Positions 14,542 to 35,174 of a DNA stretch of 48,740 bases are shown here, one piece after another. The DNA comes from a virus, in IMG/VR virus record IMGVR_UViG_3300020000_000024, positions 1 through 48,740 of that record; one strand, written 5' to 3'. The notes beneath the pieces are model-generated. The model searched no databases, had not been told where the DNA came from, and was given only the letters and a program-made list of their open reading frames with translations. Position 1 is the stretch's first letter; each line of letters begins with the position of its first letter. Position numbers and translations under genes: made by a program.

Positions 14542-14672
14542 ATGAGTCCATTTATCCACGTACCTCTCTCTAACTACGTTTGCACCCTATATTATTTACT
14601 TATGAACTACATCAGTTATCTGCTAACGTTTACTGCGTTATTTAACCCATACTGTGCAGAAATGGGATTCAT
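14542..14672 (-). ncRNA. Candidate structured intergenic RNA element A
   Basis: A spacer with no credible gene. The ends pair as ATGAGTCC (14542) with GGATTCAT (14665), 8 bp with one G-U. Inside are hairpins ACGTA/TACGT, AACT/AGTT, TAACG/CGTTA and CCCAT/ATGGG; the last overlaps the closing stem, so two folds compete. It starts 9 nt after the stop of the SSB-like gene. It is richer in GC than the surrounding genes. It may act as a 3' UTR or processing structure. Confidence 0.4.
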
Positions 14673-14681
14673 TTTTAATTA

Positions 14682-15263
14682 TTATAGATCACTAGGATCA
14701 TGTGTAACCATTTCCTGTTTTACATAAGGAACATAATCATATTTATTTGTTTTATCAAATGGCTTAACGTGATCTTTACCTTCAGCTTCTGATGCAACAA
14801 ATCCATATCTCCTAAATTGCAATGCTAATCCAAGAGTATTGTCTTGTTTAGGATATTCCTCACCTTTAATAGCAAACCAAAGGTACTTACCTGTAATAAA
14901 CAATGCAAGTTGTGCTACATAATCTGTAAGATCATCTGCTTTAATACTATCAACTTGTACTCTTACTCCCAGCTTATCAGCAATGATTCCCATATTAGTG
15001 AGAAACTCTTCACTCTGATTCTGATTTTCAGGTTTCATATAAAAGGTACGAACTTTACCAATTTGTCCTTTAGCACCTCCTTCACCTTCAAAATTATCAT
15101 CATCAACTGGTGGTGTTTCCATAAAGAATACTATCCTCTGACTACCTGTTCCAGCAGTCTCAATCTCCATTGAGTTAATTTTCAATAACTGTGGTCCACC
15201 ACATGTTATATACTTACTCAATTTTCCTTTCTTACTCGTGTCAATTCCTTTTGTAGAATACAT
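14682..15263 (-). CDS. Probable single-stranded DNA-binding protein candidate, 193 aa
   Basis: ATG at 15263; lies 8 nt downstream of the Sak4-like ATPase, which in many phages is paired with its SSB. N-terminal part has strand-rich, Gly-containing sequence (SKYITCGGPQLLKINSMEI...GTGSQRIVFFMETPP) with acidic loops, consistent with an OB-like fold; C-terminus is acidic (QEMVTHDPSDL), as in many SSBs. There is no strong family motif, so SSB is an inference from context and tail. A structured spacer follows directly. Confidence 0.55.
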   Translation of the reverse strand: MYSTKGIDTSKKGKLSKYITCGGPQLLKINSMEIETAGTGSQRIVFFMETPPVDDDNFEGEGGAKGQIGKVRTFYMKPENQNQSEEFLTNMGIIADKLGVRVQVDSIKADDLTDYVAQLALFITGKYLWFAIKGEEYPKQDNTLGLALQFRRYGFVASEAEGKDHVKPFDKTNKYDYVPYVKQEMVTHDPSDL

Positions 15264-15271
15264 ATATTTAA

Positions 15272-15949
15272 TTATTTATTTGTGAATTTTTTAATATCTT
15301 GAAAAATTTCATTTGTGTCATTGGGTATTTTCAAACCCTTTAAAAGATCTGGTGGGCATTTAGCAGAAGTTCCTTCTTGAAAAGCATTATAGAAATATTC
15401 AGGTATTCCTTTATCCGTTAATCTCTTACCAGAATAAAGAACTAAACTAAATTCTTTTTCAATTAATCCTTCCCATTCTTTTCCTTTTGCCTTCACTCTT
15501 TTTTCCATAGCACCTTCAATACCCAGAATTTCATAATGAGCTGTAATGAATACCTCTTTCTTTACTTTCTTAACTCGTGAAAGAAGTAATCCAATATTAT
15601 CATTATACATATTCCAGATTTCAAAATTCTTTTTTGTTGCTCTAGCCTCAGCTAAAAGCATTTCTGTATAGGCACTAAAACTATCAAAAACTATACAGTC
15701 AATTTGTGGATTCTTTGCATATTCAGCTAATGTTTCATAAGCTTCTTGCCAAGAATTACATTTTTTATGGTTTTTAAACTTATTTGGAAAAGGTAGAGGT
15801 TTGTTCTCTACATTAATGAACCCTGTTGTTTCAGGATTCATATTTCTAAAACTATAAGTTTTACCATCACCACTTGGTCCTACTAAAAGAACCTTATAAT
15901 AATCTCTCTCCAATGCAACGGGCGTTGCCTCTTTTTCCATTACTTCCAT
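15272..15949 (-). CDS. Sak4-like RecA-fold ATPase (recombination mediator), 225 aa
   Basis: P-loop LLVGPSGDGKT at 21-31, Walker B IDCIVFDSFSAY near 84-95, and a sensor-like VFITAHYEI near 137. The size and the phrase INVENKPLP after the P-loop fit phage Sak4/AAA_24 proteins, which anneal single strands together with an SSB. The partner would be the 193-aa gene just downstream. It overlaps the 98-aa gene by one base. Function in recombination-dependent replication is family knowledge. Confidence 0.85.
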   Translation of the reverse strand: MEVMEKEATPVALERDYYKVLLVGPSGDGKTYSFRNMNPETTGFINVENKPLPFPNKFKNHKKCNSWQEAYETLAEYAKNPQIDCIVFDSFSAYTEMLLAEARATKKNFEIWNMYNDNIGLLLSRVKKVKKEVFITAHYEILGIEGAMEKRVKAKGKEWEGLIEKEFSLVLYSGKRLTDKGIPEYFYNAFQEGTSAKCPPDLLKGLKIPNDTNEIFQDIKKFTNK

Positions 15950-16245
15950 TAACTAATCATCTCCTTCTCTACTACTGCTGTCTTAGCATCTGTTGTAGTA
16001 ATATCTAATGCGTTTTGCAGCATTACTTGAAGTGCTTGAAGATTCAATGTGAATTCTTTCAATGTTACTTCTCCCTCAATTGCAGCCATTTTACGTCTGA
16101 TAACTTCTCCCATTAAATTGGGTAACTCATTTAACTGAGCTGCTGCAATTTCTTTCCCATCCTTACCATGTGGTTCCATTAATTTCAAACCATTGTAGTT
16201 TGAAATGATCCAATACGGATCTAAAGCTTTGTCCTTAATAATCAT
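15949..16245 (-). CDS. Hypothetical protein, 98 aa
   Basis: ATG start. Mostly helical with a repeated Ala/Leu pattern (LKEFTLNLQALQVMLQNALDI). The stop shares a base with the Sak4 start, so it is co-translated with the recombination genes. No family recognised. Confidence 0.72.
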   Translation of the reverse strand: MIIKDKALDPYWIISNYNGLKLMEPHGKDGKEIAAAQLNELPNLMGEVIRRKMAAIEGEVTLKEFTLNLQALQVMLQNALDITTTDAKTAVVEKEMIS

Positions 16246-16248
16246 ATT

Positions 16249-16476
16249 TTAATATATTTGTTTAATTTCTCCCTTTTCTAACTTCTCTTTCATATCTGTA
16301 AACAAATCATCCATAGCAATTCTTCCTAATTCATCTTCTGCTTTATAATCATCCCAATCTAACATAATTACTTTAGCATTTCTTTTGTCACAATGTACTG
16401 CTTGTACAACTCCTCCATCAACTTCTATATAGATTTCACAATAATCTCCTGTTGGTAATTTTATAGTTTTATTCAT
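16249..16476 (-). CDS. Hypothetical protein, 75 aa
   Basis: Small acidic protein: beta-like N-terminal half (KTIKLPTGDYCEIYIEVDGGVVQAVHCDKR) given here only in part, helical C-terminal half (DDLFTDMKEKLEKGE). Three bases separate it from the next gene. Unknown function. Confidence 0.7.
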   Translation of the reverse strand: MNKTIKLPTGDYCEIYIEVDGGVVQAVHCDKRNAKVIMLDWDDYKAEDELGRIAMDDLFTDMKEKLEKGEIKQIY

Positions 16477-16636
16477 CTACATTATTTAAAAAAGTTTTAA
16501 TTTCATCTAATCTCTGTTTACTTGGAGTTCCTCCTCTTTCTTCTAATTCAACTAATTGTTCCAAATATTTACAAGCCTTTAGTAAATTATAGTATGTTAA
16601 TAATTGTTTACCAGCTTCTTTTTCTACATCATTCAT
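16469..16636 (-). CDS. Small helical protein, 55 aa
   Basis: ATG 16636 to TAA 16469 (MNDVEKEAGKQLLTYYNLLK...). It overlaps its upstream neighbour by 4 nt (ATGA) and its downstream neighbour by 8 nt. Predicted to be two helices (LLTYYNLLKACKYLEQLVEL; SKQRLDEIKTFLNN). Unknown function. Confidence 0.65.
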   Translation of the reverse strand: MNDVEKEAGKQLLTYYNLLKACKYLEQLVELEERGGTPSKQRLDEIKTFLNNVDE

Positions 16637-17154
16637 GTTGTTAAAAATTCTTGTGTTTCTTTTCCTTTAAATTCTAATAACTGTTTAGTATTTTTAATTG
16701 CACCTTTAGCAGGCATTACTGTATTACTATGATCACCCGTATAACCATTCATTCTACTACAGGCTAGTATATTAGCTAGCATGAGCTTCTCTAATGGTTC
16801 CTCCATAGTTTCATCTTTTTCAATAAATTCAAAAAATAAATCTATATCAAAATAAGCAGGTTCATTCCATAGATACCTAATAAAGTTTAATAATATTAAA
16901 GATTGATCATATGTACTTAGTAATTTTATTTTAATATATTCAACATCATTAACTATAACTAACTCACAAGGAGTTATCTTATTAATAAGATCAACTAAGA
17001 TAGGAATATATTTTTTGGTTCTTGATTCAGTAAATCTACTGATATAAATAGTTTCATTACTCCAATATCTCATTCCTGCCCAACAAGCATCATTAGGATT
17101 TGGTTGTATAACTCCATTTAACATTTTATAAAAATAACATCTATAACCTCTCAT
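16633..17154 (-). CDS. Hypothetical protein, 173 aa
   Basis: ATG start sharing one base with the helicase stop. Contains a Trp/Cys segment (NPNDACWAGMRYWSNETIYISRF, in part) and helical C-terminal half. No motif of a known family. Sits directly behind the helicase, so it may be a replication accessory protein; that is inference. Confidence 0.7.
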   Translation of the reverse strand: MRGYRCYFYKMLNGVIQPNPNDACWAGMRYWSNETIYISRFTESRTKKYIPILVDLINKITPCELVIVNDVEYIKIKLLSTYDQSLILLNFIRYLWNEPAYFDIDLFFEFIEKDETMEEPLEKLMLANILACSRMNGYTGDHSNTVMPAKGAIKNTKQLLEFKGKETQEFLTT

Positions 17155-18084
17155 TAATTCTTCTTTATATAATTTTCGTAATTAATTTCATTAGCTCTTG
17201 GTAATTCTTCAAATAGATTGGTTCTACCATCAAAATATAGAGGAAGATATGTATTAGCTAAACCATAATGTCTATCCTTTAGGAATATTAACATTCTGAA
17301 TCTATCTCTTAATACATCTATTTTATAATCTCTATAAGTTTTAATATTATATCTAGCTGGAGCAAATAATCCAAGTATTAAATCTGCCTCTCTTTGTGTT
17401 TCTTTATTATTAGCAAGTCCATCTAGGCTAGGTTCAAGTTTCTGCTCAATACTTTGTCCTTGATAAAACTCTTGTTTCTCTTTCTCTGCACTCTGTTGTT
17501 GTACATTGATTACTATACACTTGTATCTTTTACAGAATCCTTTAAGACAATATTCTTTAGAATAATGACCTATTGCTTCATGTAAAGTTTGTTTAATTCC
17601 ATCAACCTTTTCAGCTTGTAATAGAGATATATGATCTGTAACTACAAATACATATAAATTAGGATCTTTATACTCATAATCTATAGGTATTTCCTTACCA
17701 TTATCAGTAGCTGTAACTGTAATTGCATGACCAATTTCTGGATTTTCAAAATAATCTCTTACTTTCTTATAAATTCCAAAAGGATTAGATACATGATCTA
17801 TCACTTCTATGAATCCCTCTAATTGCTCAATAGAGGCTCTACAATCATTTATCTTAGCTAATAGACTATCAGATACTGTATATCTACCCAAGCTCTTTAA
17901 ATCAGCATTAGAAAGAGAAATATTGTATTTTTCATAAAGTGCTGTAGATAAGAGACTTAACCAAAACTCTTCTTTAGACTCTTCCAAAGCAAAATAAAAA
18001 ACTTTAACTCGTGCTCTGGGATTTTGTTTAATAAATTCAGATAAGCTATTAATAATGAGGAATTTAGTAAGCTTTGTTTTACCA
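17154..18084 (-). CDS. Replicative SF4 (DnaB-like) helicase, exon 2
   Basis: Continues the helicase after the group I intron. It begins in mid-codon (T of GTT) and reads GKTKLTKFLIINSLSEF, completing the P-loop started in exon 1, then ALEESKEEFW (catalytic Glu region of SF4 helicases), VFVVTDHISLL (Walker B strand, with TDH), CIVINVQQQS and a READLILGL segment with a later Arg-rich stretch (RDRFRMLIFLKDRHY) that could hold the arginine finger. An internal ATG at 18101 lies in intron sequence, so the frame upstream of GKT is not authentic protein. Spliced product is 364 aa, DNA unwinding at the fork. Confidence 0.88.
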
Positions 18085-18283
18085 CATAATGTTAACTGCA
18101 ATTTTATATATAGTTGCAGATCAGACTATCTCATGTTATTATTTCTAATAACCCGATATTTCTTAGGTGGATTTTGTTTTCTTCCATATCCACTAGTCGT
18201 TGAACCTTTCACAATACTTTTATAGAATTCTTGTGCTTGGTAACTGATTGTCCTTTTTAGGATATTCCAGTTTTAAATCGGTT

Positions 18284-18514
18284 TTAACGGGGCAATGTAA
18301 AACTAAACTTATTTTTATAGATTCCTTTATTATTTTTTCTTTTTAAACATTTCCAGATTAAATTTTCTCTAAAATTGAAAAATTTATTACATTCTTTTAA
18401 ACTATTAAATAAATATTCTTTATTAGTTTTTAAGTCTTTAACAATAACTTTTTTATTTTTAGATTTTTTTAATTTTGGTTTTTTTGTTATATCCTGTACT
18501 TCTTTTTTATCTTC
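18284..18514 (-). pseudogene. In-frame NUMOD-like extension after the GIY-YIG stop codon
   Basis: Immediately after the TAA of the intron endonuclease, the same frame stays open for 77 codons. It encodes a Lys-rich linker (KKPKLKKSKNKKVIV) then KDLKTNKEYLFNSLKECNKF and LIWKCLKRKN, which resembles the NUMOD1-type repeat (x-D-xxTN-x-EY-x-FxSLxEAxxxL) used by homing endonucleases to bind DNA. This looks like a lost C-terminal DNA-binding repeat; loss by a stop mutation or readthrough cannot be separated. It runs into the 5' side of the intron core. Confidence 0.6.
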
Positions 18515-19060
18515 TTAATATTTAAATTGATAACCATTCGCTTGTTTATATATTCCGCTTAATACTCTATGTATTGAAGAGGGATCTAGTTTTAAATATT
18601 TAGCTGCTTGTCTTATATAGTCAAATGAATATTGGTAATCACCATTTTCAAGATATACATCAATTTTTCTTGTTCTTGTAAATTTTATAGTACCATTTTT
18701 ATAACCTAATTTTAAAGTTTGTGAAACCTTTTTTCTACTTTCAGTAGAAAGAGTATTTCTTAATACTTCTTTAGTTAAATTATATTCTGGTTTTAGTATG
18801 TTAATCCAATATTGTTCTCTTTGTAATAGTTCTTCTTTTTCACACTCTTCTAATATAAAACAGGTAAAATTTTCAATTTTGTATTTATTTATAGCACTTC
18901 TTAAATAAATATTTTGATGTCTTCCTATTCTAAAATCAGATAAATGTTTATTTAATCTATTATAAATATTAATAGAACTTCCAATATAGATTTTTCTATT
19001 TTTTCTATTATAAATACAATAAATTCCAATTTTTTTCGAGTAATTTCGCGATATTTTCAT
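18515..19060 (-). CDS. GIY-YIG homing endonuclease, intron-encoded, 181 aa
   Basis: N-terminal GIY-YIG domain: KIGIYCIYNRKNRKIYIGSS (about 10-29) with GIY-to-YIG spacing, conserved Arg (YNRLNKH), and a catalytic Glu region (LLQREQYWINILKPEYN). The C-terminus has a NUMOD1-like DNA-binding repeat (VYLENGDYQYSFDYIRQAAKYL...SIHRVL). It would cleave intronless helicase alleles near the Walker A codons and so spread the intron. A TATATTTG box (19065-19072) lies 4 nt upstream and may drive it separately from the host gene. An in-frame TAA removes a second repeat (see 18284-18514). Confidence 0.92.
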   Translation of the reverse strand: MKISRNYSKKIGIYCIYNRKNRKIYIGSSINIYNRLNKHLSDFRIGRHQNIYLRSAINKYKIENFTCFILEECEKEELLQREQYWINILKPEYNLTKEVLRNTLSTESRKKVSQTLKLGYKNGTIKFTRTRKIDVYLENGDYQYSFDYIRQAAKYLKLDPSSIHRVLSGIYKQANGYQFKY

Positions 19061-19064
19061 ATCA

Positions 19065-19072
19065 CAAATATA
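19065..19072 (-). promoter_or_regulatory. Possible -7 box of an intron-internal promoter
   Basis: TATATTTG on the minus strand fits the Bacteroidetes TAnnTTTG box just ahead of the GIY-YIG start. A TTTTG upstream (19099-19095) is 22 nt away, wider than the 18-nt spacing of the two better promoters in this window, so this is weaker. Confidence 0.35.
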
Positions 19073-19118
19073 TAATATTTTTTACTACTTTCGACAAAAC
19101 CTTGTAAATTTAGTTAAA

Positions 19119-19137
19119 TTTACTAGGCTAATTGTTT
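19119..19137 (-). repeat. 19-nt repeat, intron copy
   Basis: AAACAATTAGCCTAGTAAA, intron nucleotides 7-25, is repeated exactly on the plus strand at 46891-46909. In the intron it covers the P1 loop/IGS side and the start of the P2-like hairpin. Confidence 0.8.
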
Positions 19138-19143
19138 GAAGCC

Positions 19144-19307
19144 ACCCCGCTCGAAGCAGTAAAAATATTATACATTCCTTTCTCCCATCCAGGAAATCTA
19201 TCATTTAATCTATTAAATGGAGAGGGAATACTAACTACCTCATTATTTTCTTTCTTCTCTTTATTCTTTCTTATTTTTTCATAAAGCTTATCAAATGCTT
19301 TTTCCAC
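19144..19307 (-). CDS. Replicative SF4 (DnaB-like) helicase, exon 1
   Basis: Reads VEKAFDKLYEKIRKNKEK... then IPSPFNRLNDRFPGWEKGMYNIFTASSGV, the canonical lead-in to the P-loop of DnaB/Gp4-like helicases (strand, then A/S-S-G-V-G-K-T). The only in-frame start is GTG at 19307; an in-frame TAA lies three codons further up. Exon 1 supplies 54 codons plus two bases. Without splicing the frame would end after VASNN within the intron. The N-terminal domain is very short, so this helicase lacks the long primase-binding N-domain of DnaB. Confidence 0.85.
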
Positions 19308-19321
19308 ATATTTTTATTTAA

Positions 19322-22825: not shown

Positions 22826-24730
22826 TTATTTTTTCCAATATTTATCTATAGTAATATCTACTTCCATATTAACTTGTTTAACATATTTATTACCACAGAT
22901 TATCATAATTTCTTTCATTTCTTGTGCAAATTGTTGGGCTAAATCTTCTCTAACTTCAACATCAATTGCATCATGCACTGTACATATTAGAAAAGCAACT
23001 TCTTCTTTGTATTGATTATTATACTCTTGAATTAGTCTTCTTATTTCAATTAAAGCTTCTTTACAAATATCAGCTCCAGTTCCTTGAATAGGCTGATTTC
23101 CACCATTTCTTTCAGTCTCACCTTCAGCCATTAAAATAGTTCTCCAATTAACTTTAGAGTTTTCTATTTCATTTTTCTTTATTTGTGCTCTTAAATCTTG
23201 AGCTATTTGTATTTTAGGATACCATCTTCGTCTTAAAGATGGAGTAAAAGTAGTACTAAACATTTGTTGTTTAGCCTTTAATCCTTGTTGTTTTAACCAT
23301 TGATTTAAGTTAGGAAAAGCTTTTTCATATTCAACGAATAACTGATTAGATTCTTCTATTGATATATTTAAAGTATCAGCTAATTTACTTGGTCCCATTC
23401 CATATGGTTTTCCAAAGTTAATTGTTTTAGCTTTATTTCTTAAATCTTTATCTTCTTTTGTAATTTTCTTTTTAAACATCATAGAACCTGCATAACAATG
23501 AAGATCTTCCCCACTATTTAATACATCTATGAATCCTTTCTCATTACTAGCATCAGCCATTAATCTTAATTCTTGCCCAGAATAATCTGCTGATACCCAT
23601 AAGAATCCCTCTTTAGCTTCAAAAGCATTTCTAAATTTATTATCTCCTGGAATATTTTGCATATTAGGAGCATTATCATCCTTAGACCCAGATGAAACTC
23701 TACCAGTATTTAATACTTGCCAAAAGCTTGTATGTACTTTATTAGTAGTTTTATTTATATATTTTAGAAATTTTTCTCCATATGTACTTACTATTTTAGC
23801 AGTTTTTCTATATTCTTGAAGCTTCTCGAAGAATTTATGTTCTTTAGTTAATTTTTTTAATTCTCTATCATTAGTACTTTCTATATTATAGCCCAATATA
23901 GAAATTAACTTTTTCATTTGTAAAGGAGAACTAAAATTTATATCATAGATTCTTTCTTCATAATTAAATAGATTTAATATTCCTGTTGGTTTATAAACTT
24001 CAGACAATGTCTTATCTTCTTGTATTATTAAATCTAAATCTCTTTGAATTTCTAGAAGTTGTAATTCAGCTCTTAGGGCTGTATCTAACCATTTATCTCT
24101 ATTTAAATAAATTCCATTATACTCAATATCTGCTAATGCTTTAACAACATTATTTTCAATATTAAGACAGTATTCAAGATTATATTCTTTAATCTTTACT
24201 TCTTGTTTTTCCTTTATTAAATGTAAATATTTTACATCTAAAGCTGAATATTCAATTTGTTTATCTGTTAGTGGCTTATCTTCTATAGTTGTAAATTCAC
24301 TTCTTATTTCTTTATCTAAAGTAATATCTAAATACCTTTTCATTAGATTAATTAGTCCGTATCCATACTTTTCATACCCACAAAAAAGAATACATTCAGC
24401 TAACATAGTATCATAAATATTCTCTATAATAATATTAGAAGCTTTTAAAAATTTATAATCAAATTTAGCATTATGAAGAATAAAATTATTATTCTCTAGA
24501 AAAGTTTTTAATTTTTGAATATCTATATATCTAACATCAATTACAAATTGATTTTCAAAATCTCCAAATTGTACTAAAATTATCTTCTTAGAATGACAAT
24601 CTTTTCCTTGGGTTTCTGTATCAAGATTTATCCATTGATGATTTTTAAAATATTCAAACATAAAATCTAAAGAACAACTTTTCCATACTTCACTTTCTAG
24701 CAGCTTTTGTTGTCCTATATAATATATCAT
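22826..24730 (-). CDS. Family A DNA polymerase with 3'-5' exonuclease domain
   Basis: 634 aa from ATG 24730; a TTG at 24748 is a less likely start. Exo domain: NLDTETQG (Exo I), LHNAKFDYKFL (Exo II), YSALDVKYLH (Exo III, YxxxD). Polymerase domain: SADYSGQELRL (motif A), RNKAKTINFGKPYG (motif B, Lys and Tyr present) and CTVHDAIDVEV (motif C). The 5'-3' exonuclease domain of Pol I is absent and is supplied by the gene at 2820-3626. This is the replicative polymerase. Its ATG overlaps the stop of a GIY-YIG gene (ATGA), so the two are co-transcribed. Confidence 0.95.
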   Translation of the reverse strand: MIYYIGQQKLLESEVWKSCSLDFMFEYFKNHQWINLDTETQGKDCHSKKIILVQFGDFENQFVIDVRYIDIQKLKTFLENNNFILHNAKFDYKFLKASNIIIENIYDTMLAECILFCGYEKYGYGLINLMKRYLDITLDKEIRSEFTTIEDKPLTDKQIEYSALDVKYLHLIKEKQEVKIKEYNLEYCLNIENNVVKALADIEYNGIYLNRDKWLDTALRAELQLLEIQRDLDLIIQEDKTLSEVYKPTGILNLFNYEERIYDINFSSPLQMKKLISILGYNIESTNDRELKKLTKEHKFFEKLQEYRKTAKIVSTYGEKFLKYINKTTNKVHTSFWQVLNTGRVSSGSKDDNAPNMQNIPGDNKFRNAFEAKEGFLWVSADYSGQELRLMADASNEKGFIDVLNSGEDLHCYAGSMMFKKKITKEDKDLRNKAKTINFGKPYGMGPSKLADTLNISIEESNQLFVEYEKAFPNLNQWLKQQGLKAKQQMFSTTFTPSLRRRWYPKIQIAQDLRAQIKKNEIENSKVNWRTILMAEGETERNGGNQPIQGTGADICKEALIEIRRLIQEYNNQYKEEVAFLICTVHDAIDVEVREDLAQQFAQEMKEIMIICGNKYVKQVNMEVDITIDKYWKK

Positions 24731-25395
24731 ATTAATTTCTTTTTCCAAATATATCCGTACATAGATGGCTTTTCACCACTACATACTGCATATATATTAT
24801 GTTTCTTATAAGTAGGATTTTTTTTAATTATATCAATTAATCTAGTCCATACTTTTATTAACTTATTAGTTTCTTTATCATATTGATATATTTTATATTT
24901 TGTATGATTGTTAGAAACTTTTTCACTCATTCGTTTTTTCTTTTCAGGATTATCTTTCCAAAATTGTATTGTTCTTTGTGAAGTTTTTAATTTTTCTTCT
25001 GGTTTGTTCGCAAATCTTTTCTTTTGTGCTTCAGATAGTCTTTTTCTTGTTTCTTCAGATATTATATATTTATTTTCACTATCAATTCTTATATTATAGC
25101 CAATTTTTCTATTGTTGGCTTCTAATTTAGCAATCCAAGATAATTCTTTTTCATAAAGTTCTTCCTTTAGACAATATTCCAATACTGAATATTCAAAAGA
25201 AATTCTCTTATATTTGTGCCAAGCTCTAATTAGATGAATATTTTCATCTTTTGATCTTTTATTCAAACCATTAATATGTCTTCTAATTCTATCATATATA
25301 GTTGTAGATCTACCAATATAGATCTTGTTATTAACTAAATTTTTAATTTGATAGATTCCTGATTTTTTGTTGTCTCTTCTTCTATGTAATTTCAT
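24727..25395 (-). CDS. GIY-YIG homing endonuclease, free-standing, 222 aa
   Basis: ATG at 25395 (MKLHRRRDNKKSGIYQIKNL...); a longer reading from TTG 25431 would overlap the promoter at 25401-25431. GIY-YIG domain: SGIYQIKNLVNNKIYIGRS, Arg in YDRIRRH, Glu region LYEKELSWIAKLEANNR. The middle has NUMOD3-like helices (SEETRKRLSEAQKKRF; RMSEKVSNNHTKY) and the end a NUMOD1-like repeat (YQYDKETNKLIKVWTRLIDII...IYAVCSGEKP). No intron core is visible around it and the polymerase appears intact, so it is a free-standing homing gene placed just before polA. Confidence 0.9.
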   Translation of the reverse strand: MKLHRRRDNKKSGIYQIKNLVNNKIYIGRSTTIYDRIRRHINGLNKRSKDENIHLIRAWHKYKRISFEYSVLEYCLKEELYEKELSWIAKLEANNRKIGYNIRIDSENKYIISEETRKRLSEAQKKRFANKPEEKLKTSQRTIQFWKDNPEKKKRMSEKVSNNHTKYKIYQYDKETNKLIKVWTRLIDIIKKNPTYKKHNIYAVCSGEKPSMYGYIWKKKLI

Positions 25396-25400
25396 GGATA

Positions 25401-25431
25401 CAAAGATACAACATAAAAAGTCAAAAGTCAA
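25401..25431 (-). promoter_or_regulatory. Bacteroidetes-type promoter before the GIY-YIG/polymerase pair
   Basis: On the minus strand TTGAC (25431-25427), 18 nt, TATCTTTG (25408-25401), 5 nt before the ATG. The same boxes with the same 18-nt spacing and a shared ATGTTGTATCTTTG core occur at 35749-35779 on the plus strand. Confidence 0.7.
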
Positions 25432-25453
25432 TAGTTTGATAAAAATTATTTCT

Positions 25454-25610
25454 CCCTGATAATCAATATATTATCTTAAATTATAATACTATGTATAACA
25501 TAGTATCGAATAAAAAACATCAGATCATAAACCCAGATGTTTCTATTCATGTTTAAAATTTTAATAATAGACTTTACCCATCTATTGTGAGGCTATGGTT
25601 GGCATCAGGG
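25454..25610 (-). ncRNA. Candidate structured intergenic RNA element B
   Basis: Spacer with no gene. Ends pair as CCCTGAT (25454) / ATCAGGG (25604), 7 bp. Internal hairpins: ATACTATG/CATAGTAT (8 bp, 5-nt loop, 25486-25506), AAACATC/GATGTTT (7 bp) and AATAGA/TCTATT (6 bp); GATAAT/ATTATC is also possible next to the closing stem. It begins 10 nt after the stop of the 216-aa gene, like the other elements. Confidence 0.45.
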
Positions 25611-25620
25611 ACTAGTATTG

Positions 25621-26271
25621 TTATAGTTTTGATTTAACTAAATTTTTAAATTCTGTTAATTCCCATTTAAATTTGAGCAAATAGCGTATATCATTAATAG
25701 ATAAACAAGGTTTATTCATTAAAATATATTCCTCTACTGCTTCTTTAGTTGAAAACCATAATCTAAAGTTTTTTCTATTAGAAACCTGATCATAAAATAT
25801 ATTATCTCTTGCAGTCTGTGTTAATATATTCCAAACACAATCTTTATTATGAAATCCAGGAATTATAAGTTCAGAATATGTATCTCCTAAAGGATAACCA
25901 TTATGACAAAATTGAACTTTATCACCAATAGTAAATACTTCCTGATCAGATAATCTTTTAACTGAATGAATATGACATTGTTTATTTTCTAAATCAGTTT
26001 TAAAACTTTCTAATGTATGCATAAAATCTTTTTGATTACTGCACTTTAAATACATATCTCTTATATAAAGTCTATTAGAATGTAATTTATAAATTACATC
26101 TTTATATTGAGGATATTCAAAAGATAATATTTCCCATTCTTTCTTAGGTTGTTGTTTATCAATGTATTGTTGAAATGCTGATTCACCTCTAGACCAATGA
26201 GGTATAAAATTTCTATATTCCTCAGCAATTTGTCTAACTAAAGGATCATTTAATAATTCTTGTTTATTCAT
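25621..26271 (-). CDS. Hypothetical protein, 216 aa
   Basis: ATG start overlapping the 103-aa gene by 8 nt. N-terminal helices (LLNDPLVRQIAEEYRNFIPHW), then mixed sequence including a short beta segment (FTIGDKVQFCHNGYPLGDTYSELIIPG, in part) that resembles a small barrel. Not recognised. Element B follows directly. Confidence 0.7.
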   Translation of the reverse strand: MNKQELLNDPLVRQIAEEYRNFIPHWSRGESAFQQYIDKQQPKKEWEILSFEYPQYKDVIYKLHSNRLYIRDMYLKCSNQKDFMHTLESFKTDLENKQCHIHSVKRLSDQEVFTIGDKVQFCHNGYPLGDTYSELIIPGFHNKDCVWNILTQTARDNIFYDQVSNRKNFRLWFSTKEAVEEYILMNKPCLSINDIRYLLKFKWELTEFKNLVKSKL

Positions 26272-27077: not shown

Positions 27078-27092
27078 ATTTTTAAATTTTTG

Positions 27093-27179
27093 TGTTCCTA
27101 GAAGGACTCGAACCTTCAAACCCAATTAAGAGTAAGGGGATTTTAAGTCCCCCGTGTATACCAATTCCACCATAGAAAC
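27093..27179 (-). tRNA. tRNA-Leu (anticodon UAA)
   Basis: Acceptor GTTTCTA/TAGGAAC (one G-U), D-arm GTG...CAC with GG in the loop, anticodon arm GGGGA-CTTAAAA-TCCCC with anticodon TAA, class II variable arm with ACTC/GGGT stem, T-arm GAAGG-TTCGAGT-CCTTC, discriminator A, CCA not encoded. 87 nt. It reads UUA, a very common codon in this AT-rich genome, so it may supplement the host pool. It is the next gene after the tmRNA, separated by 5 nt, probably processed from the same transcript. Confidence 0.93.
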
Positions 27180-27184
27180 ATAAG

Positions 27185-27595
27185 TGGAGCTAGGTGGAGT
27201 TGAACCACCGTATCCCTCTAATATTATTATAACTTTCTACATGTTTAGTATTTAGATTTCTCCTAATACAGGATATTAAATTTTTATTTTATAGTATTTA
27301 TAAACTATTCATGGATGTAATTTACTTCATCACCATCTTTGAAGCTTTCTGATTAAGCTGCGTAAGCTAATTCTGGTTCAGATACAGTGCTCAAATCTGC
27401 TGAGCGATTAAAGGAGGTCTTCACCTTTTTTAATGCAGACGCGTTTTTTACAACATAGAGGACATCTGCTAGTCCACCTACTTCGTTGGTAATGGGTTTG
27501 CCATTTACAATTATATATAGAGTTATTAAACTGCTTCCAATACTAGCAGCACATGCTTGTTATAATTCAATTAAAAGGTCTTTCCCGTTAGCCCC
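27185..27595 (-). ncRNA. ssrA: tmRNA (transfer-messenger RNA)
   Basis: 411 nt. The 5' end GGGGCTA pairs with 3' TAGCTCC (one G-U), followed by discriminator A and no CCA. The 3' tRNA-like part has ACTAAACATGTAG and GGTGG-TTCAACT-CCACC (T-arm), matching bacterial tmRNA 3' ends. A 5' GACCTT...AAGCATGTGC segment and a GGAC/GTCC stem (possible pk1) precede an open tag frame that ends ...SEPELAYAA then TAA (stop at 27355-27353); an ADLSTVSEPELAYAA reading is open, with more residues possible upstream. tmRNA rescues stalled ribosomes and tags products for proteolysis; the tag ends in AA. The exact resume codon is not certain. Confidence 0.88.
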
Positions 27596-30165: not shown

Positions 30166-30182
30166 TTTATTTTTGTTTTGAT

Positions 30183-30524
30183 TTATTTTTGAGTAATTGT
30201 ATTGGTTCTTACAATATGTCTGATATATGGATCTTTAAATACAAATAGAATTTTATTTGCAATTGCATTTTCTTTTCTATTTCTGAAATCTAATTCAGCC
30301 ATTAAACATACTTGTAAAAATGGTAATGAGTAATCTGCAGTTTCCTGCATTTGTCCTTCTTTAATCTTTGTAATGAATCGTTTAATATGCTTATCATCCA
30401 TATCTCTGATTCTCTTTGGTCTACCTTCATAATAGGGAAAGTGTACCACTACATTTCTTAGCTTATCTATGGAGGAACTAGAATAAGCTTCTTTAGCTTG
30501 TGGAAATACTGGTGTGAATGACAT
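30183..30524 (-). CDS. Hypothetical protein, 113 aa
   Basis: ATG start; basic, helical (KHIKRFITKIKEGQMQETADY; DFRNRKENAIANKILF). Seventeen bases before the 164-aa gene, so in one operon with it. No family recognised. Confidence 0.68.
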   Translation of the reverse strand: MSFTPVFPQAKEAYSSSSIDKLRNVVVHFPYYEGRPKRIRDMDDKHIKRFITKIKEGQMQETADYSLPFLQVCLMAELDFRNRKENAIANKILFVFKDPYIRHIVRTNTITQK

Positions 30525-30536
30525 ATATTTTGTTTT

Positions 30537-30755
30537 TTAATTAACATAAATTAATAAATTTCCTGTCCAATTATAAAATAGAACTAATAGAAATAATAAA
30601 AATACTACTAATCCTATAGTTGTTATTCCTATAACCCATAATAAAAATGGTGCACCTATTAAATCATCATTTTTATCTAATGTTTTACCAATAATATATG
30701 GCAGATATATTGTTAATATAATTAAAACTATAATTAATACAACTTGTTCTATCAT
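30537..30755 (-). CDS. Small membrane protein, 72 aa
   Basis: Two hydrophobic segments (VVLIIVLIILTIYLPYIIG and FLLWVIGITTIGLVVFLLFL) with a short charged loop between, so a two-helix inner-membrane protein. ATGA overlap with the upstream small gene. Could be a holin-like or superinfection protein by size and topology, but nothing specific supports either. Confidence 0.65.
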   Translation of the reverse strand: MIEQVVLIIVLIILTIYLPYIIGKTLDKNDDLIGAPFLLWVIGITTIGLVVFLLFLLVLFYNWTGNLLIYVN

Positions 30756-30907
30756 GCTACTTCTTTCTGTAATAATTCTTCACCTTCTAACACCTCAGAT
30801 TTAAGATCTTTATGATGATTCATAAAATCTAATGCATGTTTAGGATCTTTGAATTCTTGTTCCCATTCTTGCTCTGAATGAAAACATTTAAATTTTATTT
30901 TAATCAT
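30752..30907 (-). CDS. Small hypothetical protein, 51 aa
   Basis: ATG 30907 to TGA 30752 (MIKIKFKCFHSEQEWEQEFKD...). Acidic, helical C-terminus. Overlaps the membrane-protein start as ATGA. Unknown function. Confidence 0.6.
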   Translation of the reverse strand: MIKIKFKCFHSEQEWEQEFKDPKHALDFMNHHKDLKSEVLEGEELLQKEVA

Positions 30908-30908
30908 T

Positions 30909-31070
30909 TTAGTTCATATTTACTGTAATTTTATCGAAAACACTTAAATTCTTAAATGTTTGAGTTCTATCCACTATAATCATTGTTACAAATAATGGAC
31001 GAAATATTTCAAGATACTCTTCAGGTAATATAATACCATAATATTGTATTTTTTTCTGTACTTTTATCTG
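30909..31070 (-). pseudogene. Frame without a normal start, possible continuation of the gene at 31064-31222
   Basis: An open frame (QIKVQKKIQYYGIILPEEYLEIFRP... to TAA at 30909) overlaps the end of the 52-aa gene in the -1 frame and has no ATG, GTG or TTG in its first part. It could be a frameshifted C-terminal half (shift near the AAAA run at about 31075), a gene with an ATA start, or an assembly error. Confidence 0.4.
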
Positions 31071-31222
31071 ATTTTGTAATTATAATTTTCAGGAATTTTA
31101 CCATTCTTTTTAACAATACATATAGTAATACATGGTAATATATTAATACAATATCTTCTATGATATTCAGAATAATGAATACCTATCCAAAAACTATGTA
31201 GTTTGAATAATAGAAATATCAT
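31064..31222 (-). CDS. Small hypothetical protein, 52 aa
   Basis: ATG 31222 to TAA 31064 (MIFLLFKLHSFWIGIHYSEYH...). ATGA overlap with the upstream gene. Contains two Cys near the middle (INILPCITICIVKK). Possibly the N-terminal part of a longer frameshifted gene (see 30909-31070). Confidence 0.5.
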   Translation of the reverse strand: MIFLLFKLHSFWIGIHYSEYHRRYCINILPCITICIVKKNGKIPENYNYKIR

Positions 31223-31419
31223 TTTATTGGCTTTAATACTATTATATTAGAATCTGCATAAACTACTTCTGTATTAAAGAATAATTGATTTAATTGAATT
31301 TTTTTAGATGCTTCAATGACTTTTTTATTATCAGAATCTACCTTAAATACTAAATATCCAATCATACTATAAGATCCTATAATAGCAAATATTAATAGAA
31401 TTGTATCTAATTTTTTCAT
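31219..31419 (-). CDS. Small single-pass membrane protein, 66 aa
   Basis: KLDTILLIFAIIGSYSMIGYLVF near the N-terminus (quoted in part) is a transmembrane helix or uncleaved signal anchor; the remaining 40 residues would be outside the cytoplasm. Unknown function. Confidence 0.65.
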   Translation of the reverse strand: MKKLDTILLIFAIIGSYSMIGYLVFKVDSDNKKVIEASKKIQLNQLFFNTEVVYADSNIIVLKPIK

Positions 31420-31429
31420 TTTAATTTAT

Positions 31430-31570
31430 TTTAATAAACTATTAATCTTACGGGATTAATAGTAAATTGAATAGATATATTGCTTTTAGCATGTTATATC
31501 AATAGCTTACTATTCATATTAATAAAGATATGTTGCCTTGAGCTATTAACACAACGCTTACTTTATTAAA
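31430..31570 (-). ncRNA. Candidate structured intergenic RNA element C
   Basis: Ends pair as TTTAATAAA (31430) / TTTATTAAA (31562), 9 bp, overlapping the stop codon of the 121-aa gene. Inside: a perfect 10-bp hairpin ACTATTAATC/GATTAATAGT (31438-31463, 6-nt loop), TGAATAG/CTATTCA enclosing GATATA/TATATC and TGCT/AGCA, and AATAGCT/AGCTATT as an alternative. The 10-bp hairpin is the most certain part. Confidence 0.45.
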
Positions 31571-31931
31571 CTCTTACTCCATTAAAGATAAGAGATCCCC
31601 ATTTAGGAGCTTTAGAATCAAACTGTTTCAACAATACACTCAATGTATCATTGTACATTTTCTTATTCTCTTTCAACTTAGAATAAGCATGTTTAAACAT
31701 TTTAATTCCTTTCTTATCTCTTGCGAGAATAGAATCATCTCTTTTAACTAATGGACAACGAAGATCTTCTCCTACCATTTGCATATCATTACTGAAATCA
31801 ACTGGTGGATATTTATCTTCTTTACTTCCTCGAACAACCTTTGCTTGTTGTTTTACTCTTGTAATCAAGATTACAGATACTTTACTATCCATAAATAGTA
31901 TTCTGAATGGTTCTGATTTCAATATGTACAT
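31566..31931 (-). CDS. Hypothetical protein, 121 aa
   Basis: ATG start (MYILKSEPFRILFMDSKVSVILITR...). Basic N-terminal half, helical middle (KMFKHAYSKLKENKKMYND), and a GSLIFNGVRV end. Codon usage is somewhat less AT-biased than surrounding genes. Unknown. Element C follows its stop. Confidence 0.68.
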   Translation of the reverse strand: MYILKSEPFRILFMDSKVSVILITRVKQQAKVVRGSKEDKYPPVDFSNDMQMVGEDLRCPLVKRDDSILARDKKGIKMFKHAYSKLKENKKMYNDTLSVLLKQFDSKAPKWGSLIFNGVRV

Positions 31932-31943
31932 AGTTTTGTAGTT

Positions 31944-32177
31944 TTAAATAAGTTTAGCTGTTTTGTAATGAATAATTCTCTTCCATCCAAGAATAAATTC
32001 TTTCAACTTATCCTCTTTATCAAATATTGGTGCTATTTGAACATGAGAAACAGGTGATGGATTCTTAAACTTTGTTCTTCGCATCCTTCTATTTAAATCA
32101 AATCCTGATGGATTAAAAGGATGTTGTAATTTTGCAACTTCTTTTGCTGTAAATGGTTTGTTTAATCCTTTTCTCAT
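31944..32177 (-). CDS. Hypothetical basic protein, 77 aa
   Basis: ATG start; Arg/Lys/Pro-rich (LNRRMRRTKFKNPSP), likely nucleic-acid binding by composition. Thirteen bases ahead of the 121-aa gene. Unknown. Confidence 0.65.
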   Translation of the reverse strand: MRKGLNKPFTAKEVAKLQHPFNPSGFDLNRRMRRTKFKNPSPVSHVQIAPIFDKEDKLKEFILGWKRIIHYKTAKLI

Positions 32178-32178
32178 A

Positions 32179-32418
32179 TTATTTTGTTTTTTTAATATAT
32201 TTCTGTTCGTATAAACTAGGAAAATGACAGTATTTTTGATGCTTAATATTATTTACTGTCTTTAAATGAGCCTTACTTTGAGCCATTGGTAATGTATGTC
32301 AATCAGGAGCTGTTTTACATGAAGTAAATACCATTAATAAAAACATTATACATGCAAATATTATTGTATATATAAAAGTTCTTACTCCCCAGGTTAAATT
32401 TGTGAATGCATTTTTCAT
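32179..32418 (-). CDS. Small lipoprotein-like gene with an in-frame TGA
   Basis: ATG 32418 starts MKNAFTNLTWGVRTF, a hydrophobic helix and VFTSCKTAPD (Cys34 in a lipobox-like position), then TGA at 32301-32299; the same frame continues for 39 sense codons (HTLPMAQSKAHLKTVNN...) to TAA at 32179. Either a 39-aa protein, a 35-aa second gene from the ATG at 32286, or one 78-79-aa protein if TGA is read through. The product would be anchored at the cell surface or inner membrane. Unknown function. Confidence 0.5.
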
Positions 32419-32445
32419 AATTTTTGAGTTTTAAGAGTGAAAATA

Positions 32446-32570
32446 AACTATTGTAAATACTCAGAAGCTTGATTAACACCAATTAAGTGAGAATATTATC
32501 TCTAAAGTTAATACTGACCTCCCTGAGATACTACAGAGGTTCTAAATGGATTTCTCCAATTACAATAGTT
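32446..32570 (-). ncRNA. Candidate structured intergenic RNA element D
   Basis: Perfect 11-bp closing stem AACTATTGTAA (32446) / TTACAATAGTT (32560). Inside: CTTGATT/AATTAAG (7 bp with one G-U, 6-nt loop), GAGA/TCTC, and ACCTC/GAGGT (5 bp). It begins 27 nt after the stop of the 218-aa gene. No gene in the spacer 32419-32597. Confidence 0.5.
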
Positions 32571-32597
32571 CATTTAATTTACCTTTCAGTAAATATT

Positions 32598-33254
32598 TTA
32601 AAGGTTATTTTCAATCCATTCATTGACATCAAATTCTTTACCTTGTTTAAAAGAATTTACACAATGAATAATTACATTTCTTACTTTAATTTCAACTTCA
32701 TCCCTTGTATAACTATCCTTAATAGGTTTAATTGTAATAGTATTATCTTTTGGATTTACTTTAGGAATATCGTAAAATTTACCTGGAATACTATTATTAC
32801 CTGATTCTTTAATTGTACTCAATTTTCCATCATCTCTCTTCCACTGAGATTCATATTCAACCATTACTTCAGTAATCTGTTCTCCTTTGTTATATTTCTC
32901 AATATATTTTTCAATAAATGAGGGAGAAGGTTGAGGTAAATAATCAAGAACAAATGATTTCTTTTCAGATGGATTATGATAAGTTAAAGAACTATCTGTT
33001 GTAGCAATGATTTTCTTATTACCACTCCATTCCTCTTTATCAGTACCAATAGCTTGACCAATATCTCCATCAATATCATAAACCCAATCACCTTCTTTAA
33101 TTTCTTCATCTGATAAGAAATATAAATGCTGACAAAGAGTACTTTTATCATACCAATCTAACTGATTAAGTTGTAATTGACCTGATATTGCGCCTAGGAA
33201 TAATTTGACTTTTTGATTAGTTGGAAGCATTAACAACTGTAGTTTCTTTAACAT
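32598..33254 (-). CDS. Hypothetical protein, 218 aa (Bacteroidetes phage type)
   Basis: Contains EGDWVYDIDGDIGQAIG, KIIATTDSSLTYH, LPQPSPSFIEKYIEKYNKGE and ITEVMVEYE, a pattern I recognise from many uncharacterised Bacteroidetes phage proteins, where the IATTD...LPQ section is the usual core. The C-terminal part adds NTITIKPIKDSYTRDEV and a helix. No catalytic residues are evident. ATG start; Element D follows. Confidence 0.75.
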   Translation of the reverse strand: MLKKLQLLMLPTNQKVKLFLGAISGQLQLNQLDWYDKSTLCQHLYFLSDEEIKEGDWVYDIDGDIGQAIGTDKEEWSGNKKIIATTDSSLTYHNPSEKKSFVLDYLPQPSPSFIEKYIEKYNKGEQITEVMVEYESQWKRDDGKLSTIKESGNNSIPGKFYDIPKVNPKDNTITIKPIKDSYTRDEVEIKVRNVIIHCVNSFKQGKEFDVNEWIENNL

Positions 33255-33367
33255 ATCCGTAGATTTTAGTTTTAGATTAGTTTATCCCTCTGCATTCTAT
33301 TCATTGTTCAGCATTTAAAGCTTTCTTGAATAGCTCATCCTTGGGAAATGAGTTATGATGCATTAGA

Positions 33368-33444
33368 CCCAGTATCTCTTCACTTGAAGTGCTGCTTGCT
33401 AATATTACTATTAGGGCATAAGCTCATCTTGTGCCTACGCTGGG
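33368..33444 (-). ncRNA. Candidate structured RNA element E
   Basis: CCCAG (33368) / CTGGG (33440) close a junction holding three hairpins: CACT/AGTG (33381), CTAATA/TATTAG (33399-33414) and GCATAAG/CTTGTGC (33416-33434, one G-U). Cloverleaf-like, but with no T-arm or anticodon arm, so not a tRNA. Confidence 0.4.
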
Positions 33445-33468
33445 CTATCCATAGGAGAGAATATTTTA

Positions 33469-33640
33469 TAAATTCAATACAAATACAAACTATCAAATAT
33501 ATACAATATATTGAGCGTGATATTATTACAATCACTTGTGCTATTTTGAAGCGGTTTGTATAAGGTTAATAGTCAATTAACTAATTGCTCTTATTCAGAG
33601 TAAAACTTATTGTTAATTATGAGTATTTGTATTGAATTTA
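33469..33640 (-). ncRNA. Candidate structured RNA element F with an 18-bp closing stem
   Basis: Perfect inverted repeat TAAATTCAATACAAATAC (33469-33486) / its complement (33623-33640) around 136 nt. Internal hairpins: TCAA..TATAT/ATATATTGA, GTGAT/ATCAC (33517-33535), CAATTA/TAATTG (33574-33587) and CTCT/AGAG (33588-33600). It begins 5 nt after the stop of the 59-aa membrane gene. The length of perfect pairing makes chance unlikely. Confidence 0.55.
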
Positions 33641-33645
33641 ATGTT

Positions 33646-33825
33646 TTAATGTGTTAAATAATAGAACCAAGTCCATGCAATACAGAATAAAAACACCATA
33701 AGAAATGTTTCTCCTGTATATAAATGTTTTTCTTTATTTGTAGCATTTACATAAAACACAACTAAATTGTGTATTACAGTATATGTAAAGAATAAAGAAA
33801 AGAATAATATGATTAGTGTTATCAT
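33646..33825 (-). CDS. Small membrane protein, 59 aa
   Basis: ATG 33825 to TAA 33646 (MITLIILFFSLFFTYTVIH...). Two hydrophobic segments separated by a charged loop (NATNKEKHLYTGE), so a two-helix membrane protein with an aromatic second helix (FCIAWTWFYY). Flanked on both sides by structured spacers. Unknown function. Confidence 0.6.
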   Translation of the reverse strand: MITLIILFFSLFFTYTVIHNLVVFYVNATNKEKHLYTGETFLMVFLFCIAWTWFYYLTH

Positions 33826-34053
33826 AGTTTTGTATATAGTTTAGTAGTTAGTTTATAATTAATTTTCAAAGGGTACATCATTTCTGCTCATCTGCAGCGT
33901 AAGATTGTTATTCAGTATAAACCTTCGTGAAATCCTATATATTATACCAATGGTGGCTTTAATATAATGTAAATCTATCACAATATGTACTCCAATACAT
34001 ATCACTCTGTTTTACACCTTTTGGAGTGTGCTTATCAGAGTATTGCAATGTTT

Positions 34054-34128
34054 GATTAGAAATATATCCCATTCTTTAGCTGAGTTCGTATCTACCTAAG
34101 TAGCACATGTAGAGCTTAATTTCTAATC
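34054..34128 (-). ncRNA. Candidate structured RNA element G1
   Basis: Perfect 10-bp closing stem GATTAGAAAT / ATTTCTAATC, 75 nt overall, with AGCT/AGCT and TCTAC/GTAGA (or CTAC/GTAG) stems inside. Size is tRNA-like but no T-arm or anticodon arm can be drawn on either strand. Confidence 0.4.
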
Positions 34129-34246
34129 CTTTGAATGTTTTAAGAGAGCAGAAGCTTATCCCTACTCTCTAATAGTTTTCATAGGTACTATTGAACCTAT
34201 CAATTAGCAAATATCCCATTTGCTGGGCTAATCAATATTTTAATGA

Positions 34247-34367
34247 ATAATAGGCTTTGTTCACCACTGCAATCATATCTATCTACATCTTACACTTTGT
34301 TTATATGTGTACATTTCTTTGGCTTTTATGCCTTCAATAGATATTAAACATGCTAGTATCCTATTAT
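34247..34367 (-). ncRNA. Candidate structured RNA element G2
   Basis: ATAATAGG / CCTATTAT (8 bp) closes 121 nt; within it ATATCTAT / ATAGATAT (8 bp) closes TACAC/GTGTA and GGC/GCC hairpins. Two nested 8-bp perfect stems. Confidence 0.4.
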
Positions 34368-34375
34368 AGGTACAG

Positions 34376-34427
34376 GTAATTTACTTATTAGATATTTAAT
34401 AAGATTATTCTTTATGTAAAGAATTAC
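34376..34427 (-). ncRNA. Candidate structured RNA element G3
   Basis: GTAATT/AATTAC flank two short-loop hairpins, CTTATTA/TAATAAG (34384-34403) and ATTCTTT/AAAGAAT (34407-34424, 4-nt loop); the closing pair and second hairpin overlap by 3 nt, so they compete. Confidence 0.35.
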
Positions 34428-34487
34428 AAACTGTCAGAGTCTTTAATGTCTGCTCTTTTTGGTGCTTCAAAATATCTTGCTTTAAGG

Positions 34488-34541
34488 AGAGATAGCTTTA
34501 TTCCAATAACATAAACCCTTAACTTTATGTGTCTTATCTCT
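34488..34541 (-). ncRNA. Candidate structured RNA element G4
   Basis: AGAGATA/TATCTCT (7 bp) encloses ACATAAA/TTTATGT (7 bp, 8-nt loop). It lies 32 nt after the stop of the 51-aa gene. Confidence 0.4.
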
Positions 34542-34573
34542 TACTTTCATATGTTTTTCAGAGAACTCTTGGC

Positions 34574-34729
34574 TTATTTCCCGTAATTTAATTGAATCCA
34601 TTGAATACTTGAGGATTCTAATCCAGAATCAATTCCTTTTTGATAAGCATCATCAATATCAGATGCCATTACTCTAAGGATAGAGTTTGTGCTTTTAGAA
34701 GAAGCATAACTTATAAGATATTCATTCAT
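34574..34729 (-). CDS. Small hypothetical protein, 51 aa
   Basis: ATG at 34729 (MNEYLISYASSKSTNSILRVM...) to TAA at 34574; a TTG start at 34777 would add 16 residues. Ser-rich helical N-terminus, then MASDIDDAYQKGIDSGLESSS. The coding look is fair but it is isolated among structured spacers. Unknown function. Confidence 0.45.
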   Translation of the reverse strand: MNEYLISYASSKSTNSILRVMASDIDDAYQKGIDSGLESSSIQWIQLNYGK

Positions 34730-34740
34730 GATTGTATCAA

Positions 34741-34950
34741 TTAATTTAAATGAATTGTAAAGCCCTTTAAATAACAAATCTTACAATATTGTTTAGGACT
34801 ATGAGACCAATTGAATGGTTTAGATAATATATTCTTATTCATATCAATTAGCGATGTTTTTCGAGTTTTTTTGTTTGATTTTGAGTTGATTTCAAAGGTT
34901 AGATAGGTATAGTATATAACTATCATCATTTTTGATCTAATTTCACACAT
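34741..34950 (-). CDS. Doubtful small gene, 69 aa
   Basis: ATG 34950 or internal ATG 34842 (MNKNILSKPFNWSHSP...). Has a YCKICY pair near the end. No overlap coupling with a confirmed gene, so it may be chance. Confidence 0.3.
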   Translation of the reverse strand: MCEIRSKMMIVIYYTYLTFEINSKSNKKTRKTSLIDMNKNILSKPFNWSHSPKQYCKICYLKGFTIHLN

Positions 34951-35109
34951 TTAATAAACAATACGCAAACTTTACGGAGTTATTGTACTGAAAAAGGAGC
35001 AATCAGAGCTAAATTCTACCTAATCGTGTAGTATTAGTTACATTCTCACTTTGTTATCTTCATCGGATCAATGCTGTATGGACCGATGTATGTTTATACA
35101 TTATATATA

Positions 35110-35174
35110 GTGTATCAATATACTATCACCTATCTGGGTGAAGAGCTAATTACTCTTATCATATACTGATACAC
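35110..35174 (-). ncRNA. Candidate structured element H
   Basis: GTGTATCA (35110) / TGATACAC (35167), 8 bp, enclosing CACC/GGTG and AAGAG/CTCTT hairpins. The right arm is also part of the tandem repeat that follows. Confidence 0.4.

Follow-up and report, generated by a model that had tools for sequence, protein, structure and literature searches.

RNAs C and D of phage T4 are small stable RNAs of obscure function encoded in phage transfer RNA (tRNA) clusters, and the Y RNAs and bacterial YrlA RNAs, which are bound by Ro60 or Rsr, combine a terminal stem formed by both ends with a variable internal part. ROOL and GOLLD are structured noncoding RNAs of phages and prophages that were found by covariation and often lie near tRNAs (PMC12286853). 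Here we describe an RNA family, termed family A, of which one copy lies in a 48,740-nt stretch of viral DNA (IMG/VR virus record IMGVR_UViG_3300020000_000024; the window). Like ROOL and GOLLD, family A is a phage-encoded structured noncoding RNA of obscure role found by covariation and, as in GOLLD, a conserved region is joined to a less conserved one. However, ROOL and GOLLD RNAs are single molecules some 600-800 nt long or longer, whereas family A elements measure 54-236 nt, occur in modular arrays and have so far been found in crAss-like phages only; the Rfam models of ROOL and GOLLD matched nothing in the window or in 18 carrier loci. The Hatchet ribozyme (RF02678) occupies the same noncoding stretches of crAss-like contigs but differs in sequence and structure, and its model leaves both family A and a second family, B, unmatched. 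The likeness to Y and YrlA RNAs resides in the terminal stem and variable interior, with the difference that a TROVE protein goes undetected in most carriers, and the T4 RNAs are likened to family A by description alone, as small RNAs beside phage tRNAs.

Judged by its genes, the window is part of the genome of a crAss-like phage. It encodes both genes by which we assign membership of the group, a crAss-type terminase (phrog_6681, E 9e-131) and portal (phrog_6547, E 7e-143), on its plus strand, and the terminase has tblastn matches in 158 phage records, mostly crAss-like, at identities of up to ~47%. The early region lies on the minus strand, opposite these two genes. CrAss-like phages rank among the most abundant viruses known, and how their early region affects the host is poorly understood; family A, a conserved and covarying early RNA carried by 120 phage contigs or more, offers a molecule that can be tested.

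A conserved three-way junction RNA on the early strand

The family came to light when an empty stretch of the window was compared with fetched contigs. A single match was plausible, between positions 33314-33365 and contig L051: a hairpin in it carries a compensatory change, and in each genome the matched segment precedes a member of one 218-aa gene family within an extended gene-free stretch. Two further contigs then proved to contain the loop TTCCCAAGG flanked by complementary sequence, and a pattern scan of IMG/VR returned at least 120 family A stretches. Permissive blast scoring (+1/-1) yielded spurious AT-rich alignments, one of them 325 nt long with a terminase gene, and its results were not relied on by themselves.

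Family A is a three-way junction composed of a 5-bp closing stem (P1), a hairpin (P2) with loop UUCCCAAGG, a stem (P3) carrying a highly variable insert, and a tail GAGGG. The window copy has the loop, the tail and all three stems in complementary form: P1 is UGCAU/AUGCA, P2 is CUCAU-UUCCCAAGG-AUGAG with two more pairs inside when folded, P3 is CUAUUCA/UGAAUAG with its insert, and the tail reads AGAGGGAUAA. The minimum-energy fold of this copy is the family A structure. The CCC of the loop and the GGG of the tail are complementary but invariant, and constitute a candidate pseudoknot.

The 3' half was present in 129 of the 141 5'-half matches listed, and the counts that follow refer to these listed elements. 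Because AATGYAYCA on the 5' side, the loop and, less strictly, GARTRCA.AGGG were set by the search pattern and extraction rule, the invariance of these letters is partly imposed; the pairing of P1 combinations and the stems P2 and P3 were not imposed by the search. P1 was fully complementary in 125 of 129 elements and came in five different types, P2 showed more than 20 stem combinations, nearly all complementary, and the first eight positions of P3 paired in 114-122 of 123. In an alignment of 38 sequences both sides had changed in 17 of 24 pairs, which 6 of 500 shuffles reached, and cells changed on both sides numbered 157, compared with 43±5 in shuffles (none of which reached the observed value) and 12-40 when the structure was slid along the alignment. 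This covariation, as read from the alignments, is decisive. Furthermore, G-U pairs exceeded A-C pairs in the stems (35 versus 6, p 5e-6), and the selected molecule is therefore the RNA of the early strand. The P3 inserts take almost any length and sequence and are nearly unique to each phage (122 inserts, largest cluster 5), although a few of them stand on different cores. Comparative evidence of this kind shows family A to be a conserved structured RNA on the early-gene strand of crAss-like phages, with window 33280-33365 as one copy.

The crAss-like portal (PHROG 6547) was found in 27 of the 30 carriers tested, the remaining three records being fragments of 35-60 kb, and wherever one record holds both, as the window does, RNA and portal gene are on opposite strands. 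A blastn-level search of 50,697 records of isolate and reference phages gave no match, and the covariance model detected no family A in cr118_1, cr124_1, ProJPt-Bp1, crAss001 or phi14:2. Bacterial genomes gave 81 pattern matches; since just one exceeded 30 bits (L288, at the end of a 4.6-kb contig), the others look like chance. Weak matches in L036 and L049, near homologs of the 218-aa protein, suggest that more distant members may exist. Rfam 15 at the gathering score gave no match over family A or B in the window or the 18 carrier loci, nor did a permissive-threshold search of window stretches over family A; the matches reported in these searches were tRNA and Hatchet only, neither lying over A or B. 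Family A is a previously uncatalogued RNA family, absent from Rfam 15. Its covariance model finds the RNA in new assemblies, and there is reason to seek noncoding RNAs in stretches of crAss-like genomes that are annotated as empty.

Genomic setting and candidate roles of family A

Family A lies inside an open reading frame (ORF) in 4 of the 129 listed elements. The preceding ORF on the same strand is at a median distance of 301 nt and the following one at 189 nt (10th-90th percentile 35-551 nt). The 117 next genes fall into 69 clusters, and the RNA is therefore not tied to one gene; no constant downstream gene family of the kind that marks a gene-specific riboswitch was found. In relatives, family A sits in long noncoding stretches and abuts other closed modules, sometimes with Hatchet ribozymes and tRNAs near.

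One such module is family B, a second uncatalogued closing-stem RNA of crAss-like contigs, which abuts family A and has the same architecture as nine spacers of the window discussed below. Its closing stem, ACUCUCA/UGAGAGU, shows double changes and surrounds a variable part and a hairpin CAAGG/CCUUG. Junctions without a gap, both B-A and A-B, occur in L187 and L223, and many family A loci also carry family B, often as arrays, with no inserts common to the two families. In the window, no family B match was better than E 0.7 with filters off. Possibly another module is a 27-nt sequence (ACTGTATCAGCAGTTGTGTTTATT) shared at 96% between empty stretches of phi14:2 (L112, 1362-1388) and L051 (8940-8966); an empty stretch of phi14:2 also holds a degenerate tRNA-like T arm (GAAGGTTCGAATCCTTC, L112 ~1770-1850).

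The best overall explanation, which we hold tentatively and at a little under an even chance, is that these elements are modules of an early noncoding transcript, an array that would be separated into trans-acting small RNAs. The stretch 33255-35260 of the window would be an array like those of relatives, and the stronger of the predicted elements there would be modules private to the window phage. The array would be transcribed early, within the leftward transcript; early genes of Crassvirales are transcribed by the virion RNA polymerase (PMC10136315). The transcript would be cut, or separate itself, between modules, and closed modules, shielded by their end-to-end stems, may persist as small noncoding RNAs. 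The least certain step is that these would act in trans in host takeover, with the conserved core presenting the variable P3 arm for binding to a host protein or RNA. The conserved RNA structure, the strand, the phage group, the place and the modularity are all shown by the data above. The full scheme, in which an early array of cores from at least two new families with phage-specific inserts would be split into stable trans-acting RNAs, variable arms on fixed scaffolds, is unlikely to hold in every part.

Several observations weigh against the array explanation. Folded by itself, the window copy reaches a z of just -1.75, a value at which fold energy alone would have missed family A. For about a quarter of the listed copies, an ORF starts at most 73 nt beyond the element, as does the 218-aa gene in the window (26 nt), which fits a cis element too. 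No promoter/terminator pair delimits a separate RNA gene, and array membership of the other predicted modules is something we infer, since they have no sequence link to family A.

The strongest competing explanation is cis action in the processing or stability of early messenger RNA: family A would form the 5' structure of the downstream early message, the hairpin abutting it upstream would be the structure at the 3' end of the preceding RNA, and the pair would mark a cut and shield the two ends created. Relatives commonly have hairpins that abut family A: the last paired base upstream is a median of 4 nt away (0-6 nt in most listed copies), the upstream 45 nt have a mean z of -1.5, compared with -0.2 to -0.3 in nearby control windows, and a T-run lies upstream in 34 of the 129 elements. 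The proximity of the window copy to its next gene and the start of several predicted spacers 5-32 nt past stop codons agree with this role. However, the next ORF lies at very different distances, hundreds of noncoding bases lie on both sides of the elements, and a simple stabiliser needs no invariant loop and tail plus variable insert. We consider a cis role somewhat unlikely.

Cutting between the modules of the early transcript could alternatively be the work of family A itself, as a self-cleaving ribozyme or other catalytic RNA. The compact junction, the conserved unpaired letters and the possible CCC/GGG pseudoknot would suit such a molecule, as would the abutment of modules without spacers and the vicinity of Hatchet ribozymes, which lie upstream of family A on the same strand in three records (about 1 kb away in two carriers, and near a third, weaker one). 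The Hatchet model had no match in the window. Catalysis nevertheless seems quite improbable, given that family A matched no Rfam ribozyme, that the pseudoknot pairs never vary and that the conserved letters resemble no ribozyme known to us.

A Y-RNA-like partnership with a phage TROVE/Ro60-type protein, in which the terminal stem would be bound and the variable arm serve as effector, was considered because the relative L051 carries such a gene. Its 565-aa product, with Ro60-type vWA and TROVE-like regions, is encoded 7 kb downstream on the same strand (15507-17204, +), and the early genes of crAss001 include one for a TROVE protein (PMC10136315). L114 (3644-5296, +) likewise encodes a protein of this TROVE/Ro60-type or vWA RNA-binding group (phrog_850). 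However, phrog_850 occurred in 5 of 42 records, most near-complete carriers being without it at this sensitivity, and no TROVE/Ro60-type gene was found in the window fragment. Such a partnership is consequently very improbable, and modules of an early array remain the explanation we prefer.

The nine predicted spacers and other features of the window

The original prediction had singled out nine intergenic spacers of the window as one type of structured element, a closing stem around several hairpins (Table 1), and the conserved element escaped it. All nine exist as intergenic folds, each with a closing stem, but they are of mixed quality, and the view that they form one class finds no support: they have no common sequence and no convincing relatives, isolate phages included, and closed multibranched folds are usual in AT-rich DNA. 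Candidate relatives in isolate phages were rejected, the matches listed falling in the neighbouring 216-aa gene, and the close relative L104 (DNA polymerase 56%) gave no covariation for these elements because it has no early genes in common with the window.

Table 1. Positions of RNA modules in the window and in other contigs (z, plus/minus strand, against 300 dinucleotide shuffles)
Feature	Location	Strand	Observations
Noncoding stretch holding modules	33255-35260	-	~2 kb, early region; interrupted by small ORFs 33646-33825 and 34574-34950
Family A RNA	33280-33365	-	covariance model match 73.1 bits, E 7.5e-16, the copy itself being in the training alignment
Predicted closed multi-hairpin module	33368-33444	-	z -2.6/-1.6; directly abuts family A; lineage-specific
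Predicted module with 18-bp perfect stem	33469-33640	-	z -5.1/-6.0; alone in its stem-length class in the window; begins 5 nt past the stop codon of 59-aa ORF 33646-33825
Predicted 10-bp closed element, weak	34054-34128	-	z -2.0/-2.0; 10-bp stem expected by chance
Predicted 8-bp closed element, weak	34247-34367	-	z -1.6/-2.3
Predicted 14-bp stem (G-U on minus strand) with two hairpins	35110-35174	-	z -3.6/-5.6; helix probability 0.99
Predicted spacer element downstream of 218-aa gene	32446-32570	-	z -3.4/-2.2; 11-bp closing stem AACTATTGTAA
Predicted spacer element overlapping stop codon of gene 31566-31931	31430-31570	-	z -4.5/-4.4
Predicted spacer element	25454-25610	-	z -3.3/-3.5; whole-spacer p 0.00 minus; between stop of gene 25621-26271 and homing-endonuclease promoter (25431-25401)
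Predicted element, structure at chance level	14542-14672	-	z -1.4/+0.1; holds a 39-nt motif
Family B examples	L187 2207-2463; L223 11962-12369; L230 3691-3786; others
Hatchet ribozymes in crAss-like contigs	L126 5635-5767; L153 46-208; G018 87166-87350		55-81 bits

When each spacer was folded against its shuffles, about five stood clearly above them (33469-33640, 35110-35174, 31430-31570, 25454-25610 and 32446-32570), whereas the others did so weakly and 14542-14672 not at all. Note that these z-scores are inflated because borders had been chosen for a maximal closing stem. In a border-free test, comparing the best local fold of the whole spacer with 100 shuffled spacers, the excess was kept on the minus strand, which is the sense strand of the genes flanking the spacers, at 25432-25620, 33255-33645, 33826-34573 and 34951-35260 (p 0.00-0.02); z was -5.4 minus and -2.6 plus for 33255-33645, and -4.0 minus and -1.9 plus for 34951-35260. 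There was no excess at 14501-14681, 31420-31565 and 32178-32597, the tests on the latter two being not clean, in that the former omits the right arm ending at 31570 and the latter is long.

Stems of 11 and 18 bp had been deemed unexpected, and this holds for the longer one only. Perfect stems with a 30-220 nt loop in the whole window numbered 36 at 10 bp or more (32.6 expected) and 15 at 11 bp or more (9.4 expected); at 14 bp or more there were 2 versus 0.25 expected, the sole standout being the 18-bp stem of 33469-33640. In a 120-nt sliding scan the noncoding stretch was on average no more structured than coding DNA. Fold energy has little power to detect RNAs in this sequence, because the transfer-messenger RNA (tmRNA)-like gene of the window scores no higher in the same tests. 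Chance, in the form of AT-rich spacers that fold multibranched and a list that reflects selection, explains some of the nine: stems of 10-11 bp are at chance level, 14542-14672 and others are at the level of shuffled sequence, and the scan is flat. As a general account it is hardly probable, given the covariation and distribution of family A, the 18-bp stem and the minus-strand excess.

A role of the predicted spacers as 3' processing or RNA-stability structures is possible. The suggestion of a new class of phage noncoding RNA gained support through the unpredicted 33280-33365 (-) and the family B of relatives, not through the nine spacers. An origin as small mobile elements finds no support: 33469-33640, the one element for which further copies were sought, is single in the record, and no target-site duplication flanks the 18-bp inverted repeat; family A keeps a constant place, the early region, in 1-3 copies. 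The stretch 33255-35260 holds no long ORF under the standard code, nor with TAG or TGA read through.

The closing-stem sequence of 32446-32570 recurs in L051 just before an ORF at 9545, a 12-mer match that could be chance. The 39-nt noncoding motif (window 14607-14645) is shared with the crAss-like contig L050 (4915-4953) at 90% over 41 aligned columns, and an exact core pattern found no further copy in IMG/VR. A strong intrinsic terminator (GGGGGGCTTCGGCTCCCC followed by a T-rich run) lies at 35240-35220 (-), after gene 35261-35560. A scan for sigma-70 promoters gave no more matches than shuffled sequence, and the early 99-aa protein of the window had no relatives in IMG/VR.

A gene for a GIY-YIG-type homing endonuclease (24727-25431, -) lies just upstream of the DNA polymerase gene. 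A 67-nt stretch is repeated at 81% in opposite orientation (35714-35780, +, and 25466-25400, -), and both copies contain a Bacteroidetes-type promoter (TTGAC ... TATCTTTG), one serving a rightward operon and the other the homing-endonuclease gene. In the 216-aa gene, a 66-nt segment (25690-25755) shares 88% identity with Cellulophaga phage phi14:2 and resembles sequence of Flavobacterium psychrophilum phages, which is unusual for otherwise distant genomes.

The tmRNA-like gene of the window (27182-27595, -) is complete and stands beside a tRNA-Leu gene (27092-27179). It scored 46.6 bits with RF00023 against a cut-off of 47 (E 2.9e-16), its reading frame ends ...ELAYAA-stop, and ARAGORN missed it. 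An unannotated tmRNA gene is also present in phi14:2 (NC_021806) at 4031-4502 (+), with 46 bits and the ARAGORN tag GSSVQKLAMVA, and another in IMG/VR record G010 (L117) at 60883-61300, with 48.5 bits and the tag EAEQELELAA.

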